Below, one piece after another: positions 2,399-50,570 of a stretch of 64,000 nt of DNA. The notes under the pieces are model-generated. The model did no database searches and was not told the origin of the DNA. It worked only from the letters and a program-made list of their open reading frames with translations. The position numbers and the translations under genes are program-made. Origin of the DNA: Candidatus Liberimonas magnetica (GTDB lineage Bacteria; Elusimicrobiota; Endomicrobiia; Endomicrobiales; JAFGIL01); the NCBI GenBank assembly GCA_020523885.1, contig JAJAPY010000012.1:1-64000 (forward strand). Reading direction: 5' to 3'. The first letter of the stretch is position 1. The number at the start of each line of letters is the position of its first letter.

Positions 2399-2410
2399 AA
2401 AAAATAAAAT

Positions 2411-2456: not shown

Positions 2457-2543
2457 ATTAATATTTTTTAATTCTTTATAGTAATTATGCTTTGACGGAG
2501 TTTAATCACCGCAATCAAGGGAATGCTGTTTTTCTGGCAGCCC

Positions 2544-32124: not shown

Positions 32125-32147
32125 ATTGTTTAAAAAGGTTATCGGAT

Positions 32148-35100
32148 ATGAAAAGAAAAGTCATCGCTATTATCACAATATTCTGCTTCGTATTCTCATT
32201 TGTTATCGCGCAACCATTACAGGCATCTTTAGAGAGGATACGGGACATAAATTCTGTAAACGAAATACTTGACGGTTTTATGCTGCCTGCGTCTGTGGGG
32301 CGGATAACGGATAACTACAGTTCAGAGTTCGGTGTGTCCTTGGGTCGCGAAGCGGAAGTTCAGAGTTCGGAGTTTAAAAATCAAGGGTTTGGAAGCAGTC
32401 CTGGACTACGAACTAATAACTCAAATACTGTAGTAATTAACATCCAGGATCTCCACTGCCATCCTGAAGTTCAAAGAAATATATCAAAAATCATATCGAT
32501 TATAGATAACAAATACCATATAAAACATGTATATATTGAAGGCGCCTATGGTTCTGTAGATACTTCCTGGCTTACCGGTGTAAAAGACAAGGAATTAAAT
32601 GCAAAGGTTCTTGAAGTGCTCATGGAAACAGGGAAGTTATCTGGATCTGAGTATTATGCTGCGCTCTCCGGGAGGAACGACCTGTTATTTGGAGTTGATG
32701 ACAAAAGACTTCATTGTCAAAACGTCCTCAGGTTAAATACCATTGTATCTGAACAGGAGCAAATTAATCAAAAAATCGAAAACCTTGCCAGGGATTTAGA
32801 AGTATTAAAAAATATATATTATGATGCTGATAACAAGAGGCTTGATACTATCCTTAAGAAGTACAAAAACGGCGCTATCAATCCTAAAAAATTCTATAAG
32901 GCCCTTGCCAAATATTCTTTGGAACTGGACATAGACATCCGTGATTACAAAAATACGTCTGAGTTCATAAAAACATTTGACAGGTCTTTTGATTACAAAA
33001 AAGTCTCAAAAGAACTGCAGGCACTTTTAGGGCTGTTAAAACAAAAACTTCCTTATCAAGCATATCAAAACCTGGCGGTAAAAACAGCCAACTTTTCCCA
33101 GCTGCAGTATTTGTGCCTGTACTTGCCTAAGATAGCTGCTAAATACAAACTTGACATTTCAAACGACTACCCCAACCTTAAAAAGTTTTTTGATTACCTC
33201 GAGATAAGCCAGGGCATAAATTCTATAAAACTTATCAGTGAAGAATATAAACTGCTCAATGAAATCAGGCTAAGGCTTGCACGTAAAAAGAGTGAACGTG
33301 ACATTATATTTTTGATTGAATTTTCAAGATATCTTAAAGATTATCTGTCCTACAAAAGCTCATCTGAAGATTACGATTTTGTCCGCGAGAACCTGTCAAA
33401 ATTTGAGCTTTTGTGGAAACAATATATCGGAAATAACAAGCTCTCTCAAATAAAAGACAGCCTCGGCCTGCTCGAAGACTATTATCAGGTGAACCTGAAG
33501 AGAAATGAGTGCCTGCTTAATAACTGCATGAACGGCAGGGTACAGGGGGCAGGGCTCAGGGTTCAGGCGCTCAATGAAACAGCATTCCAGCATAAGCAGG
33601 ATGTAAGCATGGTTTCTAAGCCTCAGAGCTTCACAGCTTCAGAGCAGGACGACATAGTCGTGCTTGTGACCGGCGGTTTCCATACTCAGGGTATTTCTGT
33701 CCTTATGAAGGAACGGGGCATCCCTTACATTGTCATTACCCCTAATGTAACCCAGGATAATGCGTTTTCTGAATCTGTATATGCAGAGCTGCTTCAGGCT
33801 CAGACAAGGATAATAAAGGCTGCTTCTCAACGCATGAATCAACCGGTCCAACAGGGCACTGTCAAAGGCCTGGATTCGCTGCAGATAGTAGTGCTTTCAG
33901 CTCTCGGTCTTCTTGATAAAGTGCCGTTACTGGCAGACGACTTAATGGCAGGGTTATATAAAGATCCGAAGTTCAACAAAAACGGCAAGCTCGATATAGG
34001 TGCCAGCAACCGGTTATTCGGCCAGCTTTTTAAAGAAATAGGAGACACAGGCAAAACAAACGTTCTAGTAGAAGAAACTGAAACAGGGTATAAACTTTCC
34101 ATACATTATGCCGATATAGCTGATCCGGATAAAGCATTAGTTAAGACCATAGCTTATGATAAAAAATGCAAACGCATTACAGGCGATGAGGCCGTAGCTT
34201 CGGCAAAACTAAGCCCGCAGGAAGTGCGCAAAGCGCTCAGAAACTATGTCCAGAAAAATAAATGGATAATTCCCAAAGACATATTGACGACCCTCGAAGA
34301 CAAGGCGGTAAATGCCGCCGGGCTGGGATACATAGGCGATAAGCTTAAGAAAGGATTGTCAATGCTCCTTGCCGAGACCCTGCTGCTTACTGCTGGTACT
34401 ATAGCAGCAAAAATGCTTATCCACGTCAGCCTTCTGACTCCTAGTCCGGTTTCACCTATAATAATCGGAGCTGCACTGTTGCTGGGCGCTGTATTTTCCT
34501 TCATGCATTCCGATCTATATCGTGAAGGCCTGGACAGGAGAGAAAGGATACTGTTGTTCTTTAACAGGTTCCTGGGAGGGGCGGGTTTGAGCTTGCTGCT
34601 TTTTGCCGCTCCGCTTGAGCTGGCCATACCGCTGGCGGCCGGGATCCATGAACTATGGAATTTTTTGGCTCTGGCCGGGGAACGGTACCGCTACTATGAA
34701 GGAAGGAATCTAGGAAAACTTGTACTGAAAAATATGCGGGTGCTTTCTCTGAGCGGGCCGCAAAAGCTTTATGAAGTTATCTCCGGCGCCGAAGTGCTTA
34801 AAACCCTGGGTTTTGACGTCAAAAAAACCGCCAGCGGGCGGCTTGTAATAGATAAAAAGGACTATGAACTTTTTAACGAATTGAAAAAATCTCATGCCAG
34901 CTTTAATCGTGACGTGCTAAAAGATTTTCCTCTGGCGCAAAGCTACATATTTTCCCTGCGGGCCCAGGAACGCTTTGTCAAAACCGTGCTTGAGTTCATA
35001 AACGCTTACCAAAAGCTCCCCAAAGAAAAAAAGAAGGGTTATGAAATAGGCAGGGATGCTTCAGGCAGGGCTAATGTCGAGCCTTTAGGGCAAGCTATCC

Positions 35101-38100
35101 TTTTTGCCATTAAACAACATTACGGCGACCTGATAGGAGCTGACAATATCTTAAAGCACCTTTTCCACTTTTATCCATTTATCAGGCCTTCTGATTTATC
35201 CAATAAAAAACTTCTGGACGATTTATTTTCCATCAAGCCTGATTATAAAAATTATGTTGAAACAGCAGCCTATGCTTTAGCTACTAATGATCCGGTATTA
35301 TTTAATTTAGAGAGCGGCAGCGACCGGGTTTTGATGGAAGCTTTGGACCGCGTGTCCAGGGACAGGAGTATAACGGTCTCAAAGCTGTGGGCCCATCCGT
35401 TCACTGAAGAAGGCCAGATCCTGGGGCAGAAGGTCCCGCGCAAGAGCGATAACCACATCGTCCTCGGGTACGGCGAGCTTACCAGGTGCATAAAAGAAGC
35501 CGGTAAGGAAGTGGAAACAGCCGGGAAGGAAGGGCGGCCGCCCCGTAAACATGTGCTTATCATTAAAAATGTCGAGTCTATGCAGCCAGAGGTGCGCATA
35601 ATGCTTCAGGAACTTCTTAACCTTAGGGAAACAACGCATCCTGAATTCGGTACTATCAGGCTGCCGGACAATTTCCAGATACTGTTCACTAAACATGAAG
35701 GTGCAAACCTGCAGGATGAATCGTTCTATGACCGCCTTATTGTAAAGAAGGTAAAAAAACCGGCAGGTTTTAAACCTGCTGCCTTAACGGCATTTCCGGA
35801 ACAGGTGAATGAAAGAAACTATACCGATTACTTGCGTATTGATAGGGAAAACAGCGCTGTGTTCCTGGTGATAGACAATACCAAAATCCCGTTATCGGAA
35901 GGACAATTTGGCACTCTGAAAGAAGGTTTAAAGGGAGAGGATGTGCTGGATGCTGTCCATGAAAGGAGCGGGCTCATACTGGATTTTGATACTATTAAAA
36001 TGCTTTATTTTTATCATCAGGCTGCGGTAACAAAAACTAAGATCCTTCAGCTGCAGGGGGCGACCGGCGTAGGAAAGACCTACACTGCCGGCAAGCACGC
36101 AAAATCGCAAGGCAAGGATTTTTACAGCGGTTCTACGAGCGAGGGTACGGAGCTGGCTGATTTCATAGGCGGTTTTGAAATGGACGCAAGCGGCGCTTTG
36201 AGTTTTAATCCGTCAACAACATTCAAGGAACGGGCTGAGGCTGAAAACGGGAGCGTAATAGCGCTCAGCGAGTTCAATACCCTTATTGATGACCAGGAAC
36301 GTACAGCCCTGGCCTGGTGGCTTGTCCAGGTGGCGGAAGCAAAACCGGGGGATGAGGTAGGGGATATAACAATCCGGCTTACTGAAGTACCCGTACCGGA
36401 AGGCGAAGAAGTCAAGGTTATCCGCATAAGCCCCAAGACGCAGATCGTAGTTGATATAAATCCAGCCGATTATATAGCCAGGGGCATATTCCCTGACGTT
36501 TGGAAAGAATATGTGCCTGTGATTACAGTTGATAAGTTTGTTACCGGCAATGAAAGCCGTAAAGAAAGCGAGATAGACAAACTTTTCCTCTATGCCTCAA
36601 TGTATCTCAAGCACGGCTGGAAGACGGAAGCTGGTGCCGTAAAAGCCCCGGGCATAAGTGATGCTAAATTACGCGGGCAGATTTCTTCTACTCTTGCCTT
36701 TGCCTACTTATGTGTCGTAGCTTCGTATGCAGGCGGTAAACTGGGGGCTCAGGAAAAAAAGATTTTTTCTGCCCGCGAGCTGCGGCGCCTTTGCGAAGAC
36801 GTATTGTATGACATCTCTTTGGGCAAAGATGAGAAAACAGCTGTTGCCAAGGCTGTCCGCACCCATCTCGTTGCCGGCTGGAAAGAACCGTCTGACCAAA
36901 AAACTGTTATTGAAGCACTCCAGGAAATGTTTACATATAACGGAATGAAGATCAGGGCTTCAGCTATAATGAATCTATTCGAATCTCCTAAGAAGTTAAA
37001 GGAAACTAGAAGCTTTGCATCTGCTGATATAAGAGCTGAAGTCTTAGCCCTGGTGCCGCCGGAGTCTCTTGAGTCTTTGAATAAACCTACCGGATTTACT
37101 GAATTTGTAACAGACCAGATGCTTACCAAAGGGCGCCTGGTTCATATAAACGTTGAGCCGGATACCGACCTGCAGCATGAGATCAAAAACCTTGAATCAT
37201 CAGTTAACGGCACAATAAAAACAATACCCGTCACGGATAAAACAGACCGTTTTATGCTTGAAGGAGGCCTGGTCCCTACACCTGACGGGCTCGGGACTGT
37301 ATTCGGGCAGGGACTGTTGGGAAAATTACGCGAAGAAGCTTTAAGAGACCCTTCAAAACAGGTAGTATACATTTTAGATAATATCCACAACATGAGGCCG
37401 GAAGATGCTGTAGCCCTTAATGAGATCAGCCAATTGCCTGCGAATGCGCACATTCTGATGATAAGCCGCTCGCCTCTGTTGTGGTCGCCCGCGGAGCAAT
37501 CCCGCTATCCCTTATTATGCTACCGGCAGGCAAACGAGTACCGCCGGCAATACCTGGCTGAAAAACTGCTGAACGTACTTAAGGTCCAGCACAAGGTTTC
37601 TGATATAGTGATCAGGAACCTGTTCAACCTGTTAGAAAAAACCTATCAAAACCTCAAGAACGACTTCGCAGGGCAGCCCTTTCAGGTACAAATATCACAC
37701 AGGAAGTTCGTGCTGTTCCTGGCCCGGCTAAGTACAATGATAGCAGAAACTCCCAGGGGAGTTCTTAATTCAGCTCTTCTGTACGAATATATTGAAAGGG
37801 CTTTTGAACTTGTTTTTCTTCTCGATTTTGAACCGGTACAGCGTGCGGCTCTGAGCCGCAAGTTTTTAAGGGCTCTAGTTCAATATCTAAGCACCAGCCA
37901 GTTGACTGAGGAACTCAGCGCACAGCAAAAAATGCAGTTTCCCAAAGGTGTTGAACTCGTCCAGGCTCAATTTGAGTTTGAGAATGGAAAGGCTGATGCA
38001 GTGTCCAGGGATGCAGCAGCTGGTAAAATAGCTGATATCCTGAAAGCCAATCCGGATATAGGAATGTGGGAATATCCGGCGCCGGCTGAGCTTGAAAAAG

Positions 38101-41100
38101 GGGACATCGTGCGTACATACAGAGCAGGTAAGGCCTCAGGCGACGTACCGGACAGCCATAAAAGAACAAGAGCGCAGACTAATGACGGCAAAACCTGGGC
38201 AACCGGCTATGTGTTTGACGAGGTACGCATACATACTCTTGATAGGGACGGGAATCACCGCGAGAAACCGCTCGATTATGCAAGCATTGCATTAAAAGAG
38301 AAAGAAGATAAAGACAAATTTAAAGATAAATATAAAGGTAAAAGGATTAGAACGATAGCTCTCAGCAGTGACGGTAAAACCATGGTCGTAGGAGCAGATG
38401 ATGCTATTACTGGAGGGAAAGTATTAATTTTTAATATAAACGATTTGGGGGAACCTGTTTATAAGGCGCTGGTTCCGATATTTATGGATATTAAGGGAAT
38501 TGCTTTGAGCAGTGACGGCAGGACCCTTATGACATCCGATAATTTATGGACGAATGTATATACCCTTTCTTCCGAAGGAGAAATCATTAAAGAAAGCGTC
38601 ATAAATGACGACGGGACAGTTACCGATGAAGAGAAAAAAGATACCATGACATCACTGGATGACGAAATTATAGAAGTTTCAATGAGCATCAGCGGCAATG
38701 TCCTGGCTATAGGAAAGTATGGAGGGGTAACTAACGTTTATCAAATGGGAGATGACGGAAAACCCGTTATGATAGGAAAAATAAACGCGGGTACTGCAGG
38801 AACTAATATTACTTCACTTTCAGTAAGTGGCGACGGCAAGACCATAGTTGTTACTACCGGTAATAAACAGGTACGGGTGTTTCACAGGGGAGATGACGGG
38901 GCAATACCATTATTGCCTGCGGCGGTTATTGATTTTGATGAGGACTCTATTAAATCAATTGCTGTAAGTGATGATGGAAAGACTTTAGTATTAGCACACT
39001 ATAACCTAACAGGGAATGCTCAGGTAGAAGTGTATACTATAAATTCCTACGCAGAACCTTTCGCTGTGCTTCAAGGAAGCCTGGACGTACCTGCAAGACA
39101 GATCACCCAGGTAGCAATGAATGCCGACGGCTCTAATATAACGGTAAGCGGCGATGACGGCAAAACTTATGATTTTGAGAAATCGGAGTTTATAATTGAA
39201 GATAACGAAATTGTGCTGAAACTTGATAGTAAAGAAAGAATACCCCGCAGGAGCCTTTCCGAGGTTTGTGAAGTCCTGGATACTCACAGCAGCGTAAGCA
39301 CTCCGCTTGAAAGAATAAAAAAGATCCAGGAAGCATTGTATTCTACTAAAACAGCTGACGGAATAAAAAGGATAGCAGCCGAACTAAGGAAGATTCTAAA
39401 AAGCAGGGCTGCTGCCTTATCGTGGAAAACCGCAGATACAGATAAACTTGCCGTTTCAGATGTTATGTATGGCTACGGGATAACTAAGAATATAACGGAT
39501 TTTGACGGTTCTTTGCTGGAATCTGCAGCCCTGAGCGGTGACGGCAAAACTATAATAAAAATAAATGCGTCTAAGGAAATGAGCATTTGCAGTGCTTCAG
39601 CTGACAATTCTTTTATAAGGGGCAGTTCCCTGGGTCTCCAATCTAATTTTATAGATGTATTAGCGGTAAGCGAAGACGGCGGGACCGTTGTGTTAAGAAA
39701 CAGGAACGGTGATTCGTTTTTAATGATAAATGGAGAAATTAGAATTTTCCCCGGATTGGTTCCTCTTAACTCTGGTGCAGCGGTAAGCCAGGACGGATCA
39801 ACAGTAGTATTTAATACTAAAAAGGGCAAAACATATGTGTTTAAGATTAATTATGAAGGGGAAGAGGCTAAGATCAGCAATCCAAGGATTATTGAAACTG
39901 AACTTATTGCCGATTCAGTATCCTTAAGCAGTGACGGCAAGACTCTTGTGCTTGGAATGGCTGATTGGAATACCCGCGTATACAGGCTGGATAACGACAG
40001 AATACCCGGTTTAATAGCAACGTTGTCTGATGCAAAAAGCAGCATAACATCGGTTGCTGTAGCAGGAGACGGAAGTACCATAGCTGTAGGAAGTAAAGAT
40101 AAGAAGGTGTATGTCTACAGGGTTGGCCAGGACGGTACAGTCAATCAGTCCCCTGCAGTGGCACTTGAAGATGCCGCAAACCCGATAACGTCTGTTTCTA
40201 TGAACAGGGACGGCACGGCGCTAATAGCCTCAGACGGCAGTGAAAACCTGTGTATCTATAATCTGGAATACGGCGAAAATATTTCAGATAAGCCTTCAGT
40301 ATTAAAGAGCCGTATTACTGCTGCAGAGAAAATCCAATCAGCCTCTATAACACTGGACGGCTCGGCCATCCTTGCCATAAGCAGCGATAAGAAAACATTC
40401 CTGATTAAATATGCACCTTACCTGATAAATAATCTTGCTTTAGCAACAAACCTCGATAGCGAGGAAAGAATAAACCTCGAACGCCTTTCAACTACCTGCA
40501 AACTGCTGGATACAAAAGCTGATATGACACCCGAACAACGGCTTCGCCAGGCCCATAGCGAGGTTATAAATGCCGCAGATGATATAAAGGCCCGTGCGCT
40601 GGAGGAGATGAGAACGGTTTTAAAAACGTCTCCTCTTTCCAATGCCTTGGAATACAGGAATGCGGACGAGCTGCAGCCGCCGGATATTATAAGCACGTAT
40701 AAAATAAAAAATACTATTTCCACTGGCAGAGATGATGAGATGATTAATTCGCTGGCACAAAACGATAAATATATAGTCGGCGGCTGCAGCGACGGGAAAG
40801 TGCGGGTTTATGCCAAGGTTAACGATAAAGCCAACCCTGACCCTGTTGCGTTTTGTGATATCGAAGATAGTATTATTTCAACAGCGATAAGCGGAGACAC
40901 TATAATAATAGGAACCAGCAATGATAAAAAAGAATGCAACAATGTGTATATATTCCGCATCGGAGAACGGGAAGGAGCGGTTAGTCTGGCCCCTGTATCC
41001 CGTCTTAGCATCGAAGGTAAAATCACGGACGTTGTTAGTGACGGTAATACTTTGGTTGTAGCCGCCTATACTGATGTCGCTAAAGCGCATGTATACAGTA

Positions 41101-44100
41101 TGAATAAAGACAAAACAATACATGAATTATTGTCATCAATTAATTGCCCTGACGGATTTGATTCGATAAAATTATACGGAAATACTCTAGCGGTAAGCAA
41201 GCCGGCTAGGGACAACACGGAAACAGTGTATATGTACAGAGTTGAAAAAAATAGTTCAGAACCTGTTGATTCCTTTGTGATTGAAGAGTCAGTCCCCGGT
41301 TTGGCAATTTATGAAGATTTTGTAGTTGTTTTAGGGTTTAAACCCTGGGAAAGCGGCGTTATTATGCAGATATATAATAGAAAAGAACGAAAAATAACAG
41401 AGTCTGTCAGCATACCCTACCTTCCTACTGCAATAGAAAGGGATGGAAACACCCTTGTAGTTGGCACAGAGAACGGTTATGTCTACGTCTATGGAATAGT
41501 AGACGGTAAAATCAGCCCTGAAGCAATACAGGAAATGCATGTCCGGGGCGGAGTTGTATCCCTGGCGGTTAGTGATGATACAACAGCGGTTTTAAATGAT
41601 AAAGGGAATATATATTTATTTGGAAAAACCCCTTCTTACATAATAAAAGACGGCGATAAGATGATACAAATTGAAACAGGAGCTGTAATAAGCAAAACAA
41701 AGCTCCCAAAATTGTGCGAGGTAGTGAAGTTTGAACAGCATGAAGCTGCTCTGCCTGAGCAAAAACCGTTTAAACAGCTCTATGGCAAGAAAACGTTTTA
41801 TTTTGAAGCCGGGCAGGACGATACCCTATACCTGAATTTTAATGGAAAACGGTATAAAACCCGGCATACATTGATAAAATCCATTGAAAAACAGGGTGAA
41901 TATACACCGGTTGATTTTAGCGCTTTGCGAAACCCGTATAAAGAAGGCAGGCTTCCATGCACTAAACAAGATTTTCTTATGAGGACTGATTTGCTGGCGG
42001 AAGTGGAAGACTCTATAGTACAGGCTTTTGCTGAAGGCTGGCATGTTGATTTGGAAGGCCCTCCCGGCGGGGGCAAGACGAGTATCGGCCGCGAGATGGC
42101 GATGCTTTTTGGATTGCCGCGGCACCTGTTCCAGATGCACGGTGAGCGGGAATTGGCAGACCTTATAGGCGGTTTTAAGGAAGACAGCCAGGGAAGGCTG
42201 ATCCTGACCAGCGAGCCGGTCAAAGATGCAAACGGCGCGGTTATCTTTGATAAGAAAGACGGCAAGCCTCATTACAGGCAGAAATTCCTGGAGTGTCTGG
42301 TGCACGGCGGCGTGTACATTTTTGATGAAGGCGCTGTGGGCGAACAGGGCAGGGAGCTGCTGAGCTGGCTCAGCGCTGTAGGCAGAGGAGATACTGAAAT
42401 ATACCTTGAGGAGTTTCCCGGCCGCACTATTAAGCTTGAAGTAAGCAAAGATTTTCATATCGTTATTACCAACAACACGCTTAAGTACCCGTTGAAAAGC
42501 GAAATTGCATCTAATATTCAATTTATTTATGTGGACGAAGATGATTCGGCTCCTGTCCTTGAAAATCTTTTTGAATATATACTCGGAGATAATACGTCCC
42601 TGCCTAAAGACAGGAAAACAGCCTTGGCAAAGATAGCAGCGGCTGTTTACTGGGATGTGAAGCCTCTGATAGGAAAAAATCTGGGGAAAGAAAAAAAGAA
42701 CAGGTACCTTGTTTCAAAACGTGAAATACGGCGCATAGCATCACAGGTCCGCAAACAGGTGCAGGCTCTCGGCCCTGATGATGACATGTACATATTGTAC
42801 AAGTCCCTGTTCGTCGTGTTTGAAGTTATGTTCCCGCACCCGGAAGAACGGATTCTGGCCCATAGGATCATTCAAAACAGGCTGGGCAGTGACTTAACCC
42901 AGCAGTTTGAGGAGAGGCTTAAGCAAGAGATAAAACAGAAGTTTGGCAGCGCTTTAACCTGGACTGAAGCCTGTGCAGCGTTTGTGACCGAGGCCATGTT
43001 TGACCAGGATGAGCCTGTATGTTATATAGCCGAACATGATGCCAGGGCTCAGGACGTTATCGCCCAGCTGGCAGATAAACACAAGGCGGAACGAGTGGTC
43101 ATAGATGCGCTTCCTGAACATACAGAGCTTGAAATCCTGGGCGGTTCATTACCCATTTTTGGAGGGCCCGGGTCAAAAAAATCAATGTTTGTACCGGGAA
43201 GCATAACCAAATACCTGCTCAAGCAGGAAGAGCTTGAAAATCAGGCAAAAAGGGATGAAGTTATTGTCTGGATCCGGAACATAGACCAGTGGAACGAGGA
43301 AATACGCACCGCTCTTTACGGGCTCCTTGAGGACGGTTATATAGAGTTGGAAGACGAAGAAGGCTCTGTCCATACTTATTATAAGCCGCCGTGGGTGCAC
43401 CTGGTGTCTGACCTTTCGTTTGACAATACTGAGGATTTTAACAGTGCGTTTTTCAACCGGTGGATAAAGATCGGGTTGTCGAACGAAAAACCCGCGGGTT
43501 TTGATGCAGAAGGAAAGGAAGATAAGAAACTAAAAAGTGATTTTGAAATGGTGTTAGAAAAAGGCTATAGCCTGGACCCGCTAGAACGTACGATACTGAC
43601 AAACCTGTATGCCGGGTTAAAGGAGATGGACGAAAAACCTTATTGGGCGCGGCAGGCGAGGTATGATCTAGGCCCTGAAATATTCTATATGCTGGCAGAC
43701 GCTATAATACAGGCGAAAGAAGAAAATAATGAATGGCAGCAGCTCCTCCTGCGTATAGAAGAGCTGAAAAAAAGAGGAGATACTAAGTTTGACCCGCGCT
43801 CCTGGTCCGGCAGGGGCCCTCCTTCACAAAAAGAGGCAGCAGCCCTCTGGGATGAATATCTTCGTCTTGAAAAAGAAATCCTAGCTCAGGAACTTGTAAC
43901 CATACTAGGCTACAGGTTTTCCACCCGGTTGTACCCGTCATTACCTTCTGATTTTGAACGTTTTAGAGATGTTGTACAAAATTGTTTATTCCCTGTTTTT
44001 GGCACTACCTATTTAACGCTTCCTGACCCGGCTGTTCATGTACGGCCAGAGGGTGTTGTAGAGAGCATCGGGAACGTGCCGTTAAATCCCGGTGAAGGCG

Positions 44101-47100
44101 CCCTGGCGCCCGGGAAGCTGGGCAAGGACAGCCTTATAGATTATAATTACGAAGCGCGTAAAGGTCTTTCGATCCTTGCCCGGGCAAAGAGGCTGGGCAG
44201 GGCGGTATTTCTTACCGGGGGCCCGGGCTCTCTTAAGACCAGGCTCACCAAACATTTTGCAGATATAACCGGCAGTTTCTACTTTAAATTCCAGTCTCAT
44301 AAAGCAAGCAGCTACTCAGACCTGACGTTTACTCTTGCCCAGGATGAAACAGGGGCTTTTGAGGTCGAGATGAGAAGCTTCTATAAAATGTTAGAAGAAG
44401 AAACACGGGATATAGTCATAGATATAGATGAGGCAAATGCCAACCCTGCGATCCTGGGGGTCCTGGAGCCTTTATTGCGCGGTGAACGCAGGATTTATCC
44501 GGCATTTCCCGGGGCAAAACCGATTGACATAAAAGCAAAACACGTTTTGCTTACCATGACCGCAAATCCGGCATTTTTTTCAGGAAGGTCAGAAATAGGC
44601 AGGAGAATCACCAGCCGCATGATAATAGCGAATATGAACCAGCCCGGTATAAATGATGAAGCAAATATTATAGGCAGTATATTCTACGGCGTAAATTTAA
44701 GAGAACTAGAACCTGAACCGGAAATCGTTAAAACAGCGCAGGAAGAGGCAGTCAAGGAAGAGGAAGCCCGAATAACAATCAAGGAAGAAGTTCCCGCAGA
44801 TACCGGAGAAGATGAAACAATAACCGGTTATGAGGGTGTTGAAGAAGGGCACTCTTCCGTCGAGCCTGCTGTTGAACTTAAGGCAGAAGCAGCAAAAGGC
44901 GCTAAAACCAAAGCAAAAAGTAAAAGAGAAAAACCCCAGGAAGCTAAGAGAACAAAACCGGCTGCCCAGGAGCAGGCTAAAGCGGATGAAACAGCAGAAG
45001 AAGTGCAGACCCCTTTAGCTAAAGCAGTACAAGAAGCGCTAACTAATGCACAAGCACAAGAAACAGTAGCTAACGCAGCAGCAGATAAGGTAGCGGCCAA
45101 GGACAAGCAGTTTGAAGGAACGTCCGCTCCAGGTAAGCCTGCTGTTGGACCTGGGGCAAAAGCACCTCAAAGAGCTGATAGCGGCGAATACTCCGGCAGC
45201 CGGAAGATGGGTGAAAACGCATCCTGGACACGGGAAGAAGAAAATCCTACGCCGGAACAGGTCAGGGAATGGCAAAAGAAAACAGAACCCGCCTACGGCG
45301 TATTCAGCCCGGAAATATATCCTAATACGCGGTATAATGTATTAAATAAATTAAAGGTGACAGGCAATAAAATAACTTTATCCGGGCAAAAAGAACCGGA
45401 CTATCCCGGAGGCAGGGTAAGTTTCACTACCGCTCCTGAACGGGATTTGAAAAAGACCCACGATTTCTTTGACGGTACGTTCCCTGTCGAAGCCTTAAGT
45501 TCTTCCTGGCAGCGCGTGCCTTCAGCAGGCGCAGGTATGCTTATGCTCTCTGCAGAGGCAGTGGATGAAAACGGCAAAAAAACAGCTGTTGAGCTTGAAT
45601 TTGCAAAAGACAGCGCTGATAACTATTATGTGCGCTCGCCAAAGCAGGCTGTGCCTGTTAAAGCGACCCTGAAATACCGCGTTGCAGTGCGCGCCGCTTA
45701 CTTTAGCAGTGAAATACCTGACGGCACGTTTACTTGGAAAAAAGATATACCCGAACCTGTGGTTGAAGCCCTGGAGCTTATAGGTATAAAACAAGGAGAC
45801 AGCTATCAAAAGGTAGTATTTAAATTAACAGATTTTTTTAGGAACAAGGTTTCAAGTACCAAGGATATTGAAAATATTACAGGGAATGTATATTTAGATA
45901 TTATAAAAAGCCCTTACTCTAAGTGTGACCAGCGCACCTTCGCCTTTGTTGTTACAGCGCTCAGTCTGGGGATTGATGCAAGGATGGTAATAACCGGCCC
46001 TGAGAAGCATGCTTATCCGGAAATATTTGTGCCGTTTAATGATCTGGGCTGGGTGCGGCTCGGCAAAACCGGGCTTGGCGGCGGCGGAGACCCCATGAAA
46101 AATGACCTGAACCAGCTTGCAGGGGAACTGCATAGTGAAAGGTTTAAAAATAATCTTCCCGTGCCTGACCAATTGATAAAGGAATCTGAACGGTGGAAAG
46201 AACGCCAGGAAAAAGCTATGGCTCTGCAGGGTATTAAACCGCAGATAAAAACCATGCCCGCTGCAAGCAGCAGCGCTTTACCGGATAAAATAGAGTCTTT
46301 AAGCGTCGACAGGCAGGACATAGACCGGAGAGTCCGGTATGGAGTTGACGGTACGATAAGAGGAATAGTACAGGTTATAAAAACGAACGACCCTGTATCT
46401 GCCATGATGCTGCAAGGCCAGAGCGGTGAAACCTGGTTTGTTTTTAACCGGATAGTGAGCGCCGTTTTGTCAAAATACCGTACAACAACAAAAATGGTGC
46501 GCAGAGGCATAGGAGAAGTAGACGTGCAGGCAGTGGCAGCCGGAAAAGACAAAAAAATAAAAATAAGAAGAAAGGTGAATAAACCGCGGTCTGTGGCTGC
46601 TATGAACCTCATTGATTTTAGCGGCAGCCAGGAACCCAGGAAAAATGAGCTTGAGTATACTATAAGTATGATAGGCAGGCGGTTTTGGCAAGTAGGCCAG
46701 GTCATACCTCACAATTTTTTATGGGACCTGACCCATTTCACCAACCAGGCATTCAAGCCCGCTGTAGCGTTGGGTGAAAGTTTAACCGAAGACCAGAATG
46801 ACGAAAGAATAAAGTCTATGGCGAAACTGATCGGCAAAGGCGGCACCAATATCACCGCGGCTCTGTATTGGAAACTGCAGGATTATTTAGCCAGTCAGGA
46901 AGCGAAAAATGCTGAGGTTAAGTATCTTGTGTTAGTCACGGATGCCAAGGATGAAGAAGCAGGCATAAAAGACGGCAAAATAACAGATGTCCCGGTAAAA
47001 GTAGGAGTGGATGAAAAGACCGGCAAGGATATAGAAATCAGTTTGAAGAAGATACTTGAGCAGTATCGCGAGCAAGGCATAGAAATCATTGCTATCGGCA

Positions 47101-50100
47101 TAGGGGCAGGGGTCAAGGATATAGGTGCCTTTACCGGCCCCGGGGTGTATAATGTCCGTATCGGCCAAGGCAAGAACTATGATATAGCACTGGCCATTGC
47201 AAAAATAGCCGAACTTAAGATCACCGGGCCCGGGACCCTGCGCGATTTTGGAGGCGATATTACCGGTTTCCTGCAGCTGGCAGATCCGGATACAGAGAGT
47301 GATGAGCCTTTGACCAGTTTATTGGATCCTATACTGAAGGCAGCGGCGCGGTTTATCGCTGACAAAGGTTTTGAAAACGCTACCGTTTATGTAAATGTTC
47401 TGCGCAATCTCTTTAATGCTATTTCAGGCCTGTGGGAAGAACCGGTGTTCAGGTACGGCGGGCTTATGGTTATTCCTTCTCTTCTTGGATGCCTGGGAGT
47501 TGCTCCGTTACTTGCACTCGGCATCGGGTTGGTGTGGAGCGGCCCGGTATTTTTATTCCTGCATACGTTTATACGCTGGCTCGTGCGTTCAAGCCCGGCA
47601 GTTAAGTGGCAGGGATGGAAAAAAGAGCTTGCCGGTGAATTCTTCGTGCCGGTGCCTGCACTAAAACGTACATTGCCAAATACAGTTATGTCCTTTGTTA
47701 AATCGCAGGCCTTTGCAACGATAATATACAATGCGGTCTTTATAATATTGGCGGGTTCCAGAGCTCTTGCCTGCGGGATGATACCCGCTGGGCAGCTTAT
47801 CTCCCTGGCTCTTGTTGCCGCCATTGTTGTGCACATAGCCAAGGATATGAAGATAATATGGGGAAAACAATTAAAGGACAGCATTCTTATAAAACTTCAC
47901 GCTAAATTCAAAATAGGGTTTCATGAACTGGTCCATGCAACCGAGATTTCAGTGCTGAAGGGGCAGCAGGATATTGATATGCAGCGGGACGGGTTCATTT
48001 CAAGAACGCGGTGCGGTATTAATGTGCTTGGTATCGCGCCTGTTACGGGTGCGGAAAGAGAACAGCGTTTAAGGAACGTGCAGGGGATCATTGACAAAGA
48101 TTTTGTTCAGATCACGAATGAAACCGCCGGAATACCAGCGGTAGTTTTTAAAGGCGAGCGGCTGAAGGTATTTAGAGAGCTTATTGATGCAGGCGACGGC
48201 AGTTATGCGGTCCTGCTCCGCTTTGAACAACCGGCAGGCCTAGAAGCCCTGAGCGATGAGGATCTAAGCGAGATCGGGCACCAGGTTATAGGTTTTATTT
48301 GTAACAATGACAAGTTCAACAAAGAACTGATGCGCTATCTTCCGGGCCGCAACAGCAAGAAAGCTCTTAAACCTGATATCGTGTACGCAGAGGGAAAACT
48401 TGCCGGGTATATGCTCCCCGGCGATGATTTTGAGCAGGCGCTCAGGTATAAAAACACCCTGTTCATCGAGGTAGAAAAAGACAAGGTAAATGCGCAGGGA
48501 AATATCTCTGCCGGCGCTGATATCGTCATTTCCTATGATGACGTCACTAGGCTTGATACGGACGTTTTTATTAAAACAAAACTCGGTCCTGCTTACAGGA
48601 CCAAACTGCGGGAATCCATGATAAGCCGTGAAGCAGAACGGATAATAGAGGTCCGGCTCGGCGCAAATCCCGAGGCTGAATTACCGATAAAAGCGCAGGA
48701 ACAACTAAAGAAGATCTGCGGCGGCCAGGTTACATCGGCGCTTACTAAATGTGCTGTCATAAGGACACTGGAGCCTGTGCTGGATCCGGATAACAAAGAT
48801 TTTAAATCCAGAGAAGCCCAGGTATTATCAGCAAGAAAAAAAATGAAAGAACAAATAGAGAGGGGCTATACTGTAAAAAATATGCAGCAGCTGGAACTGC
48901 TGCCTTTTCTTTTAGCACGGACCCTGGAATTCTGGCCTTACAGGTTTTACGTTGACTTAAGCGGGCTTGACGGATTAAAAGAAGGTGAGTTTGATACCCT
49001 TATGAGTAAGCTGGAAACATTAAGCCGCAGAAACCCTGATACGCGGGTAATATTTGCACTGCCGTTGTCCCTGGAGAGCGCTGTGAGTAGCCGCATGGAA
49101 CAAAGGATACGGGCGGTGCGTAATTTTTATGTTGAGCGTTTATGTGTTCTTGGCCAGGTTATTCCGCTTGCAAAAGAAGACAACTTGTATTTCCGGATAG
49201 TCTATAATAACCTGCTAAACGAAGAAGATAATAAGAAGGCTGCCCGGCGTTTAGCCCAATCAGGAGCCGAGGGGTTTGTCCTCATGCCTCTTGAAAACCT
49301 CCAGGTTGCGCAGGTCCTTATGCAGGAGATATTAGAGGGGCTGATAGGCATCTCCCGCCCGCAGACACCGCAGGAACGGTTCATGCAGGCCTACCGGCGC
49401 CACGGGCTCGGTTTTTTTGACGAGAAAAATAAGCCTGCGATTAAAATAGAAGACCCGAATTTTAGCGAATTAGCTAAAATTGTGCGTGTTTATTTTACTA
49501 CCTATCACAAGGAGTTTATTGAACCTCAGGAAAAGAGAACTCTAGAACCCCTCAAAAGCGGCCCGTATATCTCAGGAATGCTTGCTGCCGTGCAAAAAAT
49601 AATTGAGAACGAACAATTTAGTTCCGGTGAATTATACCGGTTCCGGCTTAAAGCCGAACGGTATATTGAGAAGATAAGGGACTCGAACGGCGATGAACAG
49701 CTTGTTTTGTTTAGTGAGTTTATGGGTTTTACGCGCGGTATACTGGAATCATTATATAAAGGGAAAGATACTCCGAACTTCGTGACTGAACGGTGCGATA
49801 CAGCATACGGTGCGATCCTTATGAATGCTGTAACAGTGCCGGGCACAGCGCTTGAAGAAGTGCCCTTGCTCTTGGCCAGAGGCGATTATGGCCTGGCCGT
49901 AGAAATAGTGAATAATGAAATAGACAGGATAGATAAAAGCGCTGCTGCGGATGAAAGCCGGCTGAGGCTGGTTGAAGTGGCAGGCATGCTTTTGGAATAC
50001 CGCGGCAAAGGGTTTGGCCTGGATAGAAATATGAGGGGAAAAATAAATGAATTTATAGTACGCACTGCGGAAGACTATGTGGTTCAGCTGGCAAAAGAAG

Positions 50101-50570
50101 GCTTCCTTGAGGGGTTAAATCAAAAGCCGGACGGATTGAAAGCTCTTTTGTATACTACCTTAAACAAAGGAGCAGCAGTGCTGGGCGAACGGGGTGACCA
50201 GGGCCGTGCAACCCAATGGCTTGCTTATGCAGATAAGATACTTAATAATCTAAAACCAAAGCTAGGGCAGATATCTCAAGGCAACTATAGGGATGAGGAT
50301 ATTCCTTATTTTTCAGCATATATGAGCCTCTATGTTAATACCGTAACAGGCAGTGATTTCCAAATTGCCGTAGACAAGGTCCTGGCCCGGACTCTTGAAA
50401 GCTTTATTGAAGAGGCTGTCCTGCCCGGCGGCGGCTGGTCCGTTACCGAGCTTCTTATAGTATTGGATGTCTATGAACAAAGGTTACCTGAGTTTGGTGA
50501 TAAGATAAAGGAAACGCTAGGTGCCGGCATCAAAGCCAACCTGTATACCGCCATAGAAGTCGCCGGGTAG
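32148..50570 (+). CDS. Giant A: membrane-associated six-AAA+/beta-propeller/transglutaminase/VWA protein (midasin-like plan)
   Basis: About 6140 aa from the ATG at 32148, chosen for its signal peptide. An earlier ATG lies in the terminator. In order: TIKI/TraB-like domain 95-530; membrane bundle 738-845; AAA1 (degenerate), AAA2 (GATGVGKT 1304-1311), AAA3 (degenerate); three WD40-like propellers 1986-3168; AAA4 (GPPGGGKT 3304-3311, FDEG 3392), AAA5 (degenerate), AAA6 (GGPGSLKT 4024-4031, DIDEAN 4092); acidic/Lys/Ala linker 4188-4320; transglutaminase-like domain with C4593 and H4621; VWA with DFSGS 4823, T4900 and D4932; membrane bundle 5105-5234; HELVH at 5259; helical tail. Six AAA plus MIDAS recalls midasin; MoxR-VWA-transglutaminase also recalls bacterial MoxR operons. 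A remodelling role at the membrane is inferred. No frameshift is visible. Confidence 0.9.
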   Translation: MKRKVIAIITIFCFVFSFVIAQPLQASLERIRDINSVNEILDGFMLPASVGRITDNYSSEFGVSLGREAEVQSSEFKNQGFGSSPGLRTNNSNTVVINIQDLHCHPEVQRNISKIISIIDNKYHIKHVYIEGAYGSVDTSWLTGVKDKELNAKVLEVLMETGKLSGSEYYAALSGRNDLLFGVDDKRLHCQNVLRLNTIVSEQEQINQKIENLARDLEVLKNIYYDADNKRLDTILKKYKNGAINPKKFYKALAKYSLELDIDIRDYKNTSEFIKTFDRSFDYKKVSKELQALLGLLKQKLPYQAYQNLAVKTANFSQLQYLCLYLPKIAAKYKLDISNDYPNLKKFFDYLEISQGINSIKLISEEYKLLNEIRLRLARKKSERDIIFLIEFSRYLKDYLSYKSSSEDYDFVRENLSKFELLWKQYIGNNKLSQIKDSLGLLEDYYQVNLKRNECLLNNCMNGRVQGAGLRVQALNETAFQHKQDVSMVSKPQSFTASEQDDIVVLVTGGFHTQGISVLMKERGIPYIVITPNVTQDNAFSESVYAELLQAQTRIIKAASQRMNQPVQQGTVKGLDSLQIVVLSALGLLDKVPLLADDLMAGLYKDPKFNKNGKLDIGASNRLFGQLFKEIGDTGKTNVLVEETETGYKLSIHYADIADPDKALVKTIAYDKKCKRITGDEAVASAKLSPQEVRKALRNYVQKNKWIIPKDILTTLEDKAVNAAGLGYIGDKLKKGLSMLLAETLLLTAGTIAAKMLIHVSLLTPSPVSPIIIGAALLLGAVFSFMHSDLYREGLDRRERILLFFNRFLGGAGLSLLLFAAPLELAIPLAAGIHELWNFLALAGERYRYYEGRNLGKLVLKNMRVLSLSGPQKLYEVISGAEVLKTLGFDVKKTASGRLVIDKKDYELFNELKKSHASFNRDVLKDFPLAQSYIFSLRAQERFVKTVLEFINAYQKLPKEKKKGYEIGRDASGRANVEPLGQAILFAIKQHYGDLIGADNILKHLFHFYPFIRPSDLSNKKLLDDLFSIKPDYKNYVETAAYALATNDPVLFNLESGSDRVLMEALDRVSRDRSITVSKLWAHPFTEEGQILGQKVPRKSDNHIVLGYGELTRCIKEAGKEVETAGKEGRPPRKHVLIIKNVESMQPEVRIMLQELLNLRETTHPEFGTIRLPDNFQILFTKHEGANLQDESFYDRLIVKKVKKPAGFKPAALTAFPEQVNERNYTDYLRIDRENSAVFLVIDNTKIPLSEGQFGTLKEGLKGEDVLDAVHERSGLILDFDTIKMLYFYHQAAVTKTKILQLQGATGVGKTYTAGKHAKSQGKDFYSGSTSEGTELADFIGGFEMDASGALSFNPSTTFKERAEAENGSVIALSEFNTLIDDQERTALAWWLVQVAEAKPGDEVGDITIRLTEVPVPEGEEVKVIRISPKTQIVVDINPADYIARGIFPDVWKEYVPVITVDKFVTGNESRKESEIDKLFLYASMYLKHGWKTEAGAVKAPGISDAKLRGQISSTLAFAYLCVVASYAGGKLGAQEKKIFSARELRRLCEDVLYDISLGKDEKTAVAKAVRTHLVAGWKEPSDQKTVIEALQEMFTYNGMKIRASAIMNLFESPKKLKETRSFASADIRAEVLALVPPESLESLNKPTGFTEFVTDQMLTKGRLVHINVEPDTDLQHEIKNLESSVNGTIKTIPVTDKTDRFMLEGGLVPTPDGLGTVFGQGLLGKLREEALRDPSKQVVYILDNIHNMRPEDAVALNEISQLPANAHILMISRSPLLWSPAEQSRYPLLCYRQANEYRRQYLAEKLLNVLKVQHKVSDIVIRNLFNLLEKTYQNLKNDFAGQPFQVQISHRKFVLFLARLSTMIAETPRGVLNSALLYEYIERAFELVFLLDFEPVQRAALSRKFLRALVQYLSTSQLTEELSAQQKMQFPKGVELVQAQFEFENGKADAVSRDAAAGKIADILKANPDIGMWEYPAPAELEKGDIVRTYRAGKASGDVPDSHKRTRAQTNDGKTWATGYVFDEVRIHTLDRDGNHREKPLDYASIALKEKEDKDKFKDKYKGKRIRTIALSSDGKTMVVGADDAITGGKVLIFNINDLGEPVYKALVPIFMDIKGIALSSDGRTLMTSDNLWTNVYTLSSEGEIIKESVINDDGTVTDEEKKDTMTSLDDEIIEVSMSISGNVLAIGKYGGVTNVYQMGDDGKPVMIGKINAGTAGTNITSLSVSGDGKTIVVTTGNKQVRVFHRGDDGAIPLLPAAVIDFDEDSIKSIAVSDDGKTLVLAHYNLTGNAQVEVYTINSYAEPFAVLQGSLDVPARQITQVAMNADGSNITVSGDDGKTYDFEKSEFIIEDNEIVLKLDSKERIPRRSLSEVCEVLDTHSSVSTPLERIKKIQEALYSTKTADGIKRIAAELRKILKSRAAALSWKTADTDKLAVSDVMYGYGITKNITDFDGSLLESAALSGDGKTIIKINASKEMSICSASADNSFIRGSSLGLQSNFIDVLAVSEDGGTVVLRNRNGDSFLMINGEIRIFPGLVPLNSGAAVSQDGSTVVFNTKKGKTYVFKINYEGEEAKISNPRIIETELIADSVSLSSDGKTLVLGMADWNTRVYRLDNDRIPGLIATLSDAKSSITSVAVAGDGSTIAVGSKDKKVYVYRVGQDGTVNQSPAVALEDAANPITSVSMNRDGTALIASDGSENLCIYNLEYGENISDKPSVLKSRITAAEKIQSASITLDGSAILAISSDKKTFLIKYAPYLINNLALATNLDSEERINLERLSTTCKLLDTKADMTPEQRLRQAHSEVINAADDIKARALEEMRTVLKTSPLSNALEYRNADELQPPDIISTYKIKNTISTGRDDEMINSLAQNDKYIVGGCSDGKVRVYAKVNDKANPDPVAFCDIEDSIISTAISGDTIIIGTSNDKKECNNVYIFRIGEREGAVSLAPVSRLSIEGKITDVVSDGNTLVVAAYTDVAKAHVYSMNKDKTIHELLSSINCPDGFDSIKLYGNTLAVSKPARDNTETVYMYRVEKNSSEPVDSFVIEESVPGLAIYEDFVVVLGFKPWESGVIMQIYNRKERKITESVSIPYLPTAIERDGNTLVVGTENGYVYVYGIVDGKISPEAIQEMHVRGGVVSLAVSDDTTAVLNDKGNIYLFGKTPSYIIKDGDKMIQIETGAVISKTKLPKLCEVVKFEQHEAALPEQKPFKQLYGKKTFYFEAGQDDTLYLNFNGKRYKTRHTLIKSIEKQGEYTPVDFSALRNPYKEGRLPCTKQDFLMRTDLLAEVEDSIVQAFAEGWHVDLEGPPGGGKTSIGREMAMLFGLPRHLFQMHGERELADLIGGFKEDSQGRLILTSEPVKDANGAVIFDKKDGKPHYRQKFLECLVHGGVYIFDEGAVGEQGRELLSWLSAVGRGDTEIYLEEFPGRTIKLEVSKDFHIVITNNTLKYPLKSEIASNIQFIYVDEDDSAPVLENLFEYILGDNTSLPKDRKTALAKIAAAVYWDVKPLIGKNLGKEKKNRYLVSKREIRRIASQVRKQVQALGPDDDMYILYKSLFVVFEVMFPHPEERILAHRIIQNRLGSDLTQQFEERLKQEIKQKFGSALTWTEACAAFVTEAMFDQDEPVCYIAEHDARAQDVIAQLADKHKAERVVIDALPEHTELEILGGSLPIFGGPGSKKSMFVPGSITKYLLKQEELENQAKRDEVIVWIRNIDQWNEEIRTALYGLLEDGYIELEDEEGSVHTYYKPPWVHLVSDLSFDNTEDFNSAFFNRWIKIGLSNEKPAGFDAEGKEDKKLKSDFEMVLEKGYSLDPLERTILTNLYAGLKEMDEKPYWARQARYDLGPEIFYMLADAIIQAKEENNEWQQLLLRIEELKKRGDTKFDPRSWSGRGPPSQKEAAALWDEYLRLEKEILAQELVTILGYRFSTRLYPSLPSDFERFRDVVQNCLFPVFGTTYLTLPDPAVHVRPEGVVESIGNVPLNPGEGALAPGKLGKDSLIDYNYEARKGLSILARAKRLGRAVFLTGGPGSLKTRLTKHFADITGSFYFKFQSHKASSYSDLTFTLAQDETGAFEVEMRSFYKMLEEETRDIVIDIDEANANPAILGVLEPLLRGERRIYPAFPGAKPIDIKAKHVLLTMTANPAFFSGRSEIGRRITSRMIIANMNQPGINDEANIIGSIFYGVNLRELEPEPEIVKTAQEEAVKEEEARITIKEEVPADTGEDETITGYEGVEEGHSSVEPAVELKAEAAKGAKTKAKSKREKPQEAKRTKPAAQEQAKADETAEEVQTPLAKAVQEALTNAQAQETVANAAADKVAAKDKQFEGTSAPGKPAVGPGAKAPQRADSGEYSGSRKMGENASWTREEENPTPEQVREWQKKTEPAYGVFSPEIYPNTRYNVLNKLKVTGNKITLSGQKEPDYPGGRVSFTTAPERDLKKTHDFFDGTFPVEALSSSWQRVPSAGAGMLMLSAEAVDENGKKTAVELEFAKDSADNYYVRSPKQAVPVKATLKYRVAVRAAYFSSEIPDGTFTWKKDIPEPVVEALELIGIKQGDSYQKVVFKLTDFFRNKVSSTKDIENITGNVYLDIIKSPYSKCDQRTFAFVVTALSLGIDARMVITGPEKHAYPEIFVPFNDLGWVRLGKTGLGGGGDPMKNDLNQLAGELHSERFKNNLPVPDQLIKESERWKERQEKAMALQGIKPQIKTMPAASSSALPDKIESLSVDRQDIDRRVRYGVDGTIRGIVQVIKTNDPVSAMMLQGQSGETWFVFNRIVSAVLSKYRTTTKMVRRGIGEVDVQAVAAGKDKKIKIRRKVNKPRSVAAMNLIDFSGSQEPRKNELEYTISMIGRRFWQVGQVIPHNFLWDLTHFTNQAFKPAVALGESLTEDQNDERIKSMAKLIGKGGTNITAALYWKLQDYLASQEAKNAEVKYLVLVTDAKDEEAGIKDGKITDVPVKVGVDEKTGKDIEISLKKILEQYREQGIEIIAIGIGAGVKDIGAFTGPGVYNVRIGQGKNYDIALAIAKIAELKITGPGTLRDFGGDITGFLQLADPDTESDEPLTSLLDPILKAAARFIADKGFENATVYVNVLRNLFNAISGLWEEPVFRYGGLMVIPSLLGCLGVAPLLALGIGLVWSGPVFLFLHTFIRWLVRSSPAVKWQGWKKELAGEFFVPVPALKRTLPNTVMSFVKSQAFATIIYNAVFIILAGSRALACGMIPAGQLISLALVAAIVVHIAKDMKIIWGKQLKDSILIKLHAKFKIGFHELVHATEISVLKGQQDIDMQRDGFISRTRCGINVLGIAPVTGAEREQRLRNVQGIIDKDFVQITNETAGIPAVVFKGERLKVFRELIDAGDGSYAVLLRFEQPAGLEALSDEDLSEIGHQVIGFICNNDKFNKELMRYLPGRNSKKALKPDIVYAEGKLAGYMLPGDDFEQALRYKNTLFIEVEKDKVNAQGNISAGADIVISYDDVTRLDTDVFIKTKLGPAYRTKLRESMISREAERIIEVRLGANPEAELPIKAQEQLKKICGGQVTSALTKCAVIRTLEPVLDPDNKDFKSREAQVLSARKKMKEQIERGYTVKNMQQLELLPFLLARTLEFWPYRFYVDLSGLDGLKEGEFDTLMSKLETLSRRNPDTRVIFALPLSLESAVSSRMEQRIRAVRNFYVERLCVLGQVIPLAKEDNLYFRIVYNNLLNEEDNKKAARRLAQSGAEGFVLMPLENLQVAQVLMQEILEGLIGISRPQTPQERFMQAYRRHGLGFFDEKNKPAIKIEDPNFSELAKIVRVYFTTYHKEFIEPQEKRTLEPLKSGPYISGMLAAVQKIIENEQFSSGELYRFRLKAERYIEKIRDSNGDEQLVLFSEFMGFTRGILESLYKGKDTPNFVTERCDTAYGAILMNAVTVPGTALEEVPLLLARGDYGLAVEIVNNEIDRIDKSAAADESRLRLVEVAGMLLEYRGKGFGLDRNMRGKINEFIVRTAEDYVVQLAKEGFLEGLNQKPDGLKALLYTTLNKGAAVLGERGDQGRATQWLAYADKILNNLKPKLGQISQGNYRDEDIPYFSAYMSLYVNTVTGSDFQIAVDKVLARTLESFIEEAVLPGGGWSVTELLIVLDVYEQRLPEFGDKIKETLGAGIKANLYTAIEVAG
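35200..37560 (+). other. Giant A segment: AAA1-AAA3
   Basis: AAA1 has a degenerate Walker A (NLESGSDRV near residue 1053), but keeps a Walker-B-like strand (HVLIIKNVESMQPEVRIMLQ at about 1134) and a sensor-like FQILFTKHE. AAA2 is canonical: GATGVGKT, the midasin/MoxR-type helix-2 insert ELADFIGGFEMD, and Walker-B-like VIALSEFNTL in which E1375 remains. AAA3 lacks a P-loop but has QVVYILDNIHNMRPEDAVAL (from 1738) and AHILMISRSP. All fit the AAA_5/MoxR-midasin branch. Confidence 0.75.
38103..41650 (+). repeat. Giant A segment: three tandem WD40-like beta-propellers
   Basis: Three blocks (about 38103-39180, 39463-40411, 40684-41640) each contain 5-7 blades of the form IxxxALSxDGKTxxVGxxxxxVxVYxxxxDG. 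Each block starts with a (D)IxxTYKIKNxI-like strand. Helical linkers at 39220-39460 and 40440-40680 separate them and are themselves related: LDSxERIxxxxLSxxCxxLDT, then RKILKS or RTVLKT. The whole block therefore arose by triplication of propeller plus linker. WD40 propellers usually bind proteins or peptides. Confidence 0.8.
41940..44660 (+). other. Giant A segment: AAA4-AAA6
   Basis: AAA4 is fully canonical (GPPGGGKTS, ERELADLIGGFKED insert, VYIFDEG Walker B, HIVITNNT sensor 1). AAA5 has lost the P-loop (YIAEHDARAQDVIAQL) but keeps EVIVWIRNIDQWNEEIRTAL and HLVSDLS. AAA6 is canonical (GGPGSLKTR, IVIDIDEANANP, LLTMTANPAFF, then GRRITSRM as an arginine-finger region). Confidence 0.8.
46320..47260 (+). 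other. Giant A segment: VWA domain with complete MIDAS
   Basis: The core strand AAMNLIDFSGSQEP gives DxSxS (D4823, S4825, S4827), KGGTNITAAL gives T4900 and LVLVTDAKDEE gives D4932. All five metal-coordinating positions of a MIDAS are present. In midasin and in MoxR partners the VWA domain binds substrate through a metal ion and an acidic residue. Just upstream is the transglutaminase-like domain, with SKCDQRTF and KHAYPEIFV. Confidence 0.85.

Follow-up and report, generated by a model that had tools for sequence, protein, structure and literature searches.

Introduction

The well-known single-chain AAA+ rings (dynein, midasin and RNF213) are eukaryotic. In single-chain rings such as dynein each module completes the ATP site of the one before it (module i+1 that of module i), and the MIDAS of midasin binds UBL domains of ribosome assembly factors. 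In midasin (Rea1 or Mdn1) one chain contains six MoxR-midasin-branch AAA modules, a charged linker and a C-terminal MIDAS/VWA domain, the linker being structured and approximately 1,800 aa long (PMC8837202). Bacterial MoxR-VWA pairs such as NorQ-NorD combine a MoxR-branch ring of identical single-module subunits with a VWA/MIDAS partner that is a separate protein. AAA rings with one VWA are known from NorQD (PMC13036017) and midasin (PMC8837202); in both, the AAA ring carries the VWA, a loop of which lies in the pore, the MIDAS grips the target and ring motion twists or pulls it (PMC13036017; PMC8837202). The MoxR-vWA ternary conflict systems (Kaur et al. 2020, PMC7159879) bring together a MoxR AAA protein with a single module, a vWA, beta-propellers and transglutaminase-like or metallo-peptidases, all encoded by separate genes. 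Elusimicrobiota and Omnitrophota are rich in huge proteins (PMC11573180), and the giant ORFs of Omnitrophota (Seymour et al. 2023, PMC10066038), with a suspected role in cell-cell interaction, are described as sparsely annotated in domains and poorly conserved; the portion of that text searched contains no six-AAA family. In the open-access subset of the literature that was searched, no report of a bacterial six-AAA chain was found.

Here we describe P0001, a six-AAA giant encoded at positions 32103–50570 (+) of the window, a 64,000-nucleotide stretch of contig JAJAPY010000012.1 from Candidatus Liberimonas magnetica. It shares with midasin the six MoxR-midasin-branch modules, the charged linker and the C-terminal MIDAS/VWA domain, and with NorQ-NorD the MoxR-branch AAA, the VWA/MIDAS and an arginine finger before strand 5. 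Its domains overlap with those of the ternary conflict systems, here with six AAA modules and joined in one chain. Like dynein it is a single chain of six AAA modules, although no stalk or microtubule-binding domain was recognised and dynein lacks a VWA. Giant size, and the phylum to which many of its relatives belong, are held in common with the Omnitrophota ORFs.

Architecture of P0001

The P0001 product is 6155 aa long from the first ATG at 32103, from which residues are numbered here (numbers in the first-pass annotation of the window are 15 lower), and 6140 aa long from the ATG at 32148, which lies just before a signal-peptide-like segment. That annotation had proposed one uninterrupted frame, and no internal stop was found in the 6155 codons, including those from ATG 32148, against 173–549 stops in the other five frames. 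Chance or misassembly is excluded because the same architecture occurs in independent assemblies. All features described below lie on the plus strand. An N-terminal cassette (residues 16–569; 32148–33809), identified by homology and comprising the signal-peptide-like segment and a domain of approximately 530 aa, is followed by three hydrophobic TM-like segments upstream of AAA1 (residues 755–834; 34365–34604; hydropathy only).

All six AAA modules previously proposed were located by Pfam and family profiles between residues 1061 and 4195. AAA1 (residues 1061–1240; 35283–35822), AAA3 (residues 1659–1824; 37077–37574) and AAA5 (residues 3619–3798; 42957–43496) are degenerate modules without a P-loop and carry arginine fingers at R1211, R1801 and R3786, respectively. 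AAA2 (residues 1285–1480; 35955–36542) has the Walker A sequence GATGVGKT (K1325), Walker B S1389-E1390 and sensor-1 N1453; the corresponding features are GPPGGGKT (K3325), DE 3408-3409 and N3458 in AAA4 (residues 3288–3499; 41964–42599) and GGPGSLKT (K4045), DE 4109-4110 and N4155 in AAA6 (residues 4011–4195; 44133–44687). Pfam AAA_5 matched AAA6 (1.2e-10), AAA4 (1.7e-4), AAA1 (0.003) and AAA2 (0.009), while AAA3 and AAA5 gave no Pfam match and were recovered with family profiles only. The ELADxIGGF motif that had been assigned to helix 2 of the modules is present in AAA2 and AAA4 and absent from the other four; in low-confidence models this ELAD(F/L)IGGF signature of AAA2/AAA4 is followed by strands. 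The modules are not contiguous, a point absent from the first-pass annotation, as a WD40/EML-type beta-propeller region (residues ~2020–3200; 38160–41702) interrupts them after AAA3.

Downstream of AAA6 lie an acidic, then Lys/Ala-rich linker (residues 4199–4350; 44697–45152), a transglutaminase-like domain of thiol-peptidase fold (residues 4450–4690; 45450–46172) and a VWA domain (residues 4800–5045; 46500–47237; Pfam 6.3e-6). The charged linker and the VWA had both been correctly anticipated, the intervening transglutaminase-like domain had not. The DxSxS...T...D pattern of the MIDAS is complete, as previously noted for D4823, S4825, S4827, T4900 and D4932, which here are D4838, S4840, S4842, T4915 and D4947. 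Further hydrophobic TM-like segments (residues 5119–5245; 47457–47837; hydropathy only) precede a C-terminal tail (residues 5246–6155; 47838–50567) that is missing in several relatives.

Distribution of the family

A second six-AAA giant, P0003, was found on another contig of the same genome (3.39 Mb, 97.8% complete). It is at least 5109 aa long, the contig edge cutting the frame, and has six AAA modules and a VWA with a MIDAS but no propellers. P0001 and P0003 are colinear in AAA1 (27% identity), AAA2 (32%) and AAA4-5 (24%). A single-sequence search of 60 related genomes gave a match in P0001's own genome only, and other relatives became detectable only after the switch to a two-sequence profile. 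Profile searches covered genomes of Elusimicrobiota, which is the phylum of the window rather than Omnitrophota, the one named at first pass, and genomes of Omnitrophota. With an AAA4-6 profile, 11 of 341 Elusimicrobiota genomes matched, seven of them strongly. Of 384 Omnitrophota genomes, 35 matched at E up to 0.001, an upper figure since the weaker matches include ordinary small proteins; 22 of these 35 encode a matching frame of at least 2,500 aa, the longest being 18,421 aa. Relatives include proteins of the Elusimicrobia MAGs JAHFCE010000005, MGUU01000006 and CAIKVT010000069 and one of the same plan in an Omnitrophota MAG (JADFXQ010000002). Relatives with the six-module order, for which an HMM search had been suggested, occur in both phyla, across which identity is 22–28%. 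No family name for the six-AAA giants was found in Pfam or NCBIfam, and they apparently constitute an undescribed family of two little-known bacterial phyla.

The number of propeller units differs among relatives, from two to five. G066 (L047:1909-19077) has five tandem units of approximately 430 aa each that are 74–83% identical, G264 has four and G293 two, and this variation suggests recent expansion. Further Omnitrophota giants with several AAA modules and a VWA, mostly also with an HExxH motif, were observed at L087/L088 (G359), L089 (G357), L090 (G388), L091 (G376), L092 (G372), L093 (G374) and L086 (G369); their module profiles are out of the 1–6 order and they are possibly sister families. 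The 18,421-aa open frame, in Omnitrophota genome G593 (C33, L096), has a weak AAA match.

Module order, phylogeny and ATP sites

Module profiles were trained on five proteins (P0001, G066, G264, G293 and L061). When these were applied to eight held-out giants (P0003, G070, G529a, G529b, G507, G360, G633 and G437), the best-profile order was 1-2-3-4-5-6 in all eight, the runner-up profile at each module being of the same odd or even parity; in G653 five of six modules were in the expected order. For a maximum-likelihood tree, 72 modules taken from 12 proteins were combined with four modules of Rea1 and three further AAA proteins encoded in the genome; six positional clades were resolved (ultrafast bootstrap 93–100, SH-aLRT 88–99). 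Odd modules grouped together (99/98), a grouping to which their common P-loop loss could contribute, as did even modules (100/99). Recent tandem duplication of modules inside one protein was rejected, the modules clustering by position across two phyla. The simplest reading of the tree is that an inactive-active pair was triplicated before the subfamilies split.

Motifs were counted in 14 proteins (42 even and 42 odd modules). The Walker A Lys, Walker B Glu and sensor-1 Asn are each present in 42/42 even modules, and a P-loop in 0/42 odd modules. Ser or Asn stands in for the Walker B Asp of AAA2 in all 14 proteins (S1389 in P0001), the Glu being kept, an unusual and consistent substitution which indicates that this module may bind rather than hydrolyse ATP. 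The residue before the AAA6 Lys is not Gly in any of the 14. An arginine finger just before strand 5 is invariant in AAA1 and AAA5 (14/14 each) and in AAA3 (14/14, of which 12 by alignment and two, G653 SVAEINRF and G633 SPAEINRF, read by eye), while no conserved Arg occupies the finger position of the even modules in the 14 aligned proteins. The MIDAS motif is kept in nearly all family members. With the site of module i completed by module i+1, the expected pairs are AAA2-AAA3, AAA4-AAA5 and AAA6-AAA1; conservation of the AAA1 finger would be best explained by a closed ring, and the overall motif pattern is that expected for a closed pseudo-hexamer with three ATP sites. The conserved family, the alternation of active and inactive modules and a peptidase-like slot (see below) were further points absent from the first-pass annotation.

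Predicted structures and proposed mechanism

Half-ring models of P0001 were generated separately for AAA1-3 and AAA4-6, the latter (956 aa) from a five-sequence alignment with no templates. The AAA4-6 model (pLDDT 67, pTM 0.66) contains three AAA cores, and in Foldseek searches against the PDB the whole half-ring was placed on dynein AAA rings, its top structural match, with E down to 5.9e-23 (TM by query 0.51–0.54, ~966 columns). The AAA1-3 model (pLDDT 60.8, pTM 0.46) matched dynein best (1.9e-13), ahead of Rea1 (7.3e-10), at a low TM of ~0.2; AAA1 and AAA3 were folded and AAA2 was poorly modelled. Fewer than six AAA folds would have spoken against the earlier proposal, and this outcome was not seen: AAA1, 3, 4, 5 and 6 were predicted as AAA folds, and AAA2 has Walker A and sensor motifs. 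These models speak for AAA folds, and that of AAA4-6 also for a ring-like arrangement, but they stop short of showing closure of all six modules, and rings of dynein or Rea1 in the AlphaFold training data may have shaped them.

Taken together, P0001 is probably a single-chain MoxR-VWA remodelling machine with its six AAA modules arranged as a closed pseudo-hexamer. From the conserved order, motifs and domains we infer closure of the ring, its ATPase activity, docking of the VWA, a remodelling function and the site of action. The ring would consist of three inactive-active pairs in one polypeptide, with ATP at AAA2, AAA4 and AAA6; the degenerate module that follows each of them would supply the finger (AAA3 and AAA5, and AAA1 through ring closure). 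Tethered in the same chain, the VWA would dock on the ring and grip a target protein through the MIDAS metal, as in midasin and NorQ-NorD, and ATP-driven ring motion would pull or twist this target. Recruitment or processing (or binding) would fall to the propellers and to the peptidase-like domain that precedes the VWA. Remodelling or extraction of a specific protein is, in our view, the most likely role of the giant. Mean pLDDT values of only 61 and 67, the poorly predicted AAA2, its missing Walker B Asp and the AAA1-3 TM of ~0.2 weigh against a closed-ring machine.

N-terminus and site of action

A Sec-like hydrophobic segment was predicted from hydropathy at the N-terminus of all ten members in which this end is intact, in conflict with a cytoplasmic ATP-using ring. 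Seven members (G264, G293, L061, G529a, G529b, G507 and G638) have no further TM-like segment before AAA1; P0001, P0003 and G066 have extra ones, which could return the ring to the cytoplasm. Residues 16–569 of P0001 match the start (residues 1–583) of a neighbouring, otherwise unrelated 12,025-aa giant with 36% identity (3e-106), and the same cassette matches the Omnitrophota giants G529a/b (L077, L078); no Pfam match was obtained for its ~530 aa. A second N-terminal cassette is common to L061, G507 and G653. The neighbouring giant converges tail to tail with P0001, the minus-strand ORF at 50635–63933 (-), 4432 aa, being the C-terminal part of its frame, which reaches contig position C12:86712. 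Its domains comprise a PPDK ATP-binding domain (2.5e-76), a PEP-utiliser domain, two class-3 lipases, a GT4 glycosyltransferase, an APH-like kinase, an M20 peptidase and HEAT repeats. With PPDK in the neighbour and AAA in P0001, ATP-using domains repeatedly follow the cassette. Either the segment exports nothing downstream of it, or the ATP comes from another cell at the place where the proteins act.

Export of the ring, with the ATPase active inside host or prey cells or using ATP released outside, is possible and not favoured. The ten Sec-like N-termini and the seven members lacking further TM-like segments before AAA1 point that way, and Omnitrophota are inferred to be predators or symbionts whose giant ORFs are suspected to act on other cells (PMC10066038). 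On the other side, no delivery route or target is known, the topology is drawn from hydropathy only, the extra TM-like segments of three members could restore a cytoplasmic ring, and a PPDK domain behind the same cassette suits the cytoplasm. A broader proposal, in which a triplicated inactive-active MoxR pair, fused to its VWA partner and an exchangeable peptidase-like domain, gave rise to a single-chain AAA+ ring for a third time, separately from midasin and dynein, and in which the machine is also exported and acts outside its producer, possibly in a host or prey cell with ATP, seems to us rather doubtful.

Spacing of the AAA modules

The long separation of AAA3 and AAA4 in P0001 and its subfamily (approximately 1,460 residues in P0001, of which approximately 1,200 are WD40-type propellers), together with models that cover half-rings only, is also consistent with an arrangement in which AAA1-3 and AAA4-6 each pair with half of another chain to give a dimer of giants. 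This is unlikely, as six modules follow in direct succession, unbroken by propellers, in P0003, G070, G360, G437 and G529a, and the longest gap of G529b and G507 separates AAA4 from AAA5 rather than AAA3 from AAA4, indicating that the insertion site marks no fixed half-ring boundary. All six positions are moreover conserved together, and closure within one chain remains the preferred reading.

The peptidase-like slot

Nearly all members have a peptidase-like slot between the ring modules and the VWA. In the propeller subfamily (P0001, G066, G264, G293, L061 and G068) it is occupied by the transglutaminase-like domain just before the VWA. The Cys, His and Asp positions are all present in the other five proteins, and P0001, with a profile match of 1.4e-4 just under the Pfam cut-off, keeps the Cys and His positions and has lost the Asp. 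An HExxH motif was found in the same interval of 16 of 17 other giants, including the P0003 paralogue, against a shuffle mean of 0.225 and maximum of 3/17, and is rare elsewhere in these 17 proteins. Judged from the motif the region may be a zinc peptidase; Pfam gave no peptidase match for it, and neither Pfam nor NCBIfam a family name. Such a conserved slot raises the question of a polyprotein, in which the peptidase-like domain cuts the chain and AAA pieces join other copies as an ordinary hexamer. We regard this as improbable: modules that are specific to their positions cannot be exchanged like subunits, AAA1-6 would stay one chain after cutting in the slot, and the slot of P0001 looks catalytically damaged.

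The missing triad position of P0001 would also fit a decaying or structural giant (a coat or adhesin) with AAA modules as passengers without ATPase function, and bacterial giant ORFs are often proposed to be adhesins or coats (PMC10066038). Retention of Lys, Glu and Asn in 42/42 even modules and of fingers in 42/42 odd modules, across two phyla at 22–28% identity, makes this most improbable, and the preferred reading is still that of an ATP-using machine.

Relationship to midasin

Midasin was the first PDB match of both the AAA4-6 profile (8.5e-55, ahead of NorQ at 8.1e-7 and McrB at 3.8e-4) and the AAA1-3 profile (5.4e-39, ahead of dynein at 4.6e-5 and McrB at 1.6e-4), and AAA6 alone matched it at 1.7e-44. 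Midasins thus ranked far above NorQ, dynein, ClpC and McrB, and the sequence match to dynein is far weaker; with the AAA_5 matches, this fits the earlier assignment to the MoxR/midasin branch. Matches to several modules inflate the whole-protein scores; taken singly, the best domain is Rea1 AAA3 at 4.5e-12. With the AAA6 profile Rea1 AAA3 scored 47–49 bits against no more than 18 for the genome's other AAA_5 proteins, and likewise exceeded them with the AAA2 profile, the Rea1 pieces having been chosen from search matches, a mild selection.

The giant differs from midasin in its three strictly alternating dead modules and in lacking the ~1,800-aa structured linker between AAA6 and the MIDAS domain; in P0001 this stretch is ~640 aa, part of it the transglutaminase-like domain. 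It is bacterial and adds propellers, a peptidase-like domain, TM-like segments and a signal-peptide-like N-terminus. Rea1 modules fell outside the bacterial odd and even groups of the 72-module tree, in which three of six Rea1 positions were sampled (AAA1, AAA3 and AAA5), and positional orthology was rejected (module 3 with Rea1 AAA3, AU p 0.000914; module 5 with Rea1 AAA5, AU p 2.0e-5). A true midasin, eukaryote-derived or co-inherited as a six-module chain, would account for midasin being the best solved relative of both half-rings and for the AAA2 and AAA6 scores of Rea1 AAA3, but given these rejected joins and a bacterial AAA6 best matched by Rea1 AAA3 rather than Rea1 AAA6 it deserves hardly any credence. 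On sequence grounds the midasin-like layout of the P0001 family seems to have evolved independently, by convergence, from the MoxR branch, in keeping with the convergent or distant analogue, not orthologue, first proposed; we conclude that P0001 probably works like midasin yet is no midasin.

Significance

MoxR-VWA machines are already known, and what appears to be new here is the one-chain six-module form, its midasin-like architecture being probably convergent. A bacterial family with the same plan as midasin, three-site alternation and a conserved peptidase-like slot represents an independent evolutionary experiment, and illustrates how a homohexameric MoxR ring and its VWA partner may become one polypeptide. 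Ring closure is testable by one mutation, the AAA1 finger and the AAA6 site lying approximately 3,000 residues apart. The family also provides a concrete candidate machine for a share of the so far unexplained giant genes that Omnitrophota and Elusimicrobiota carry.
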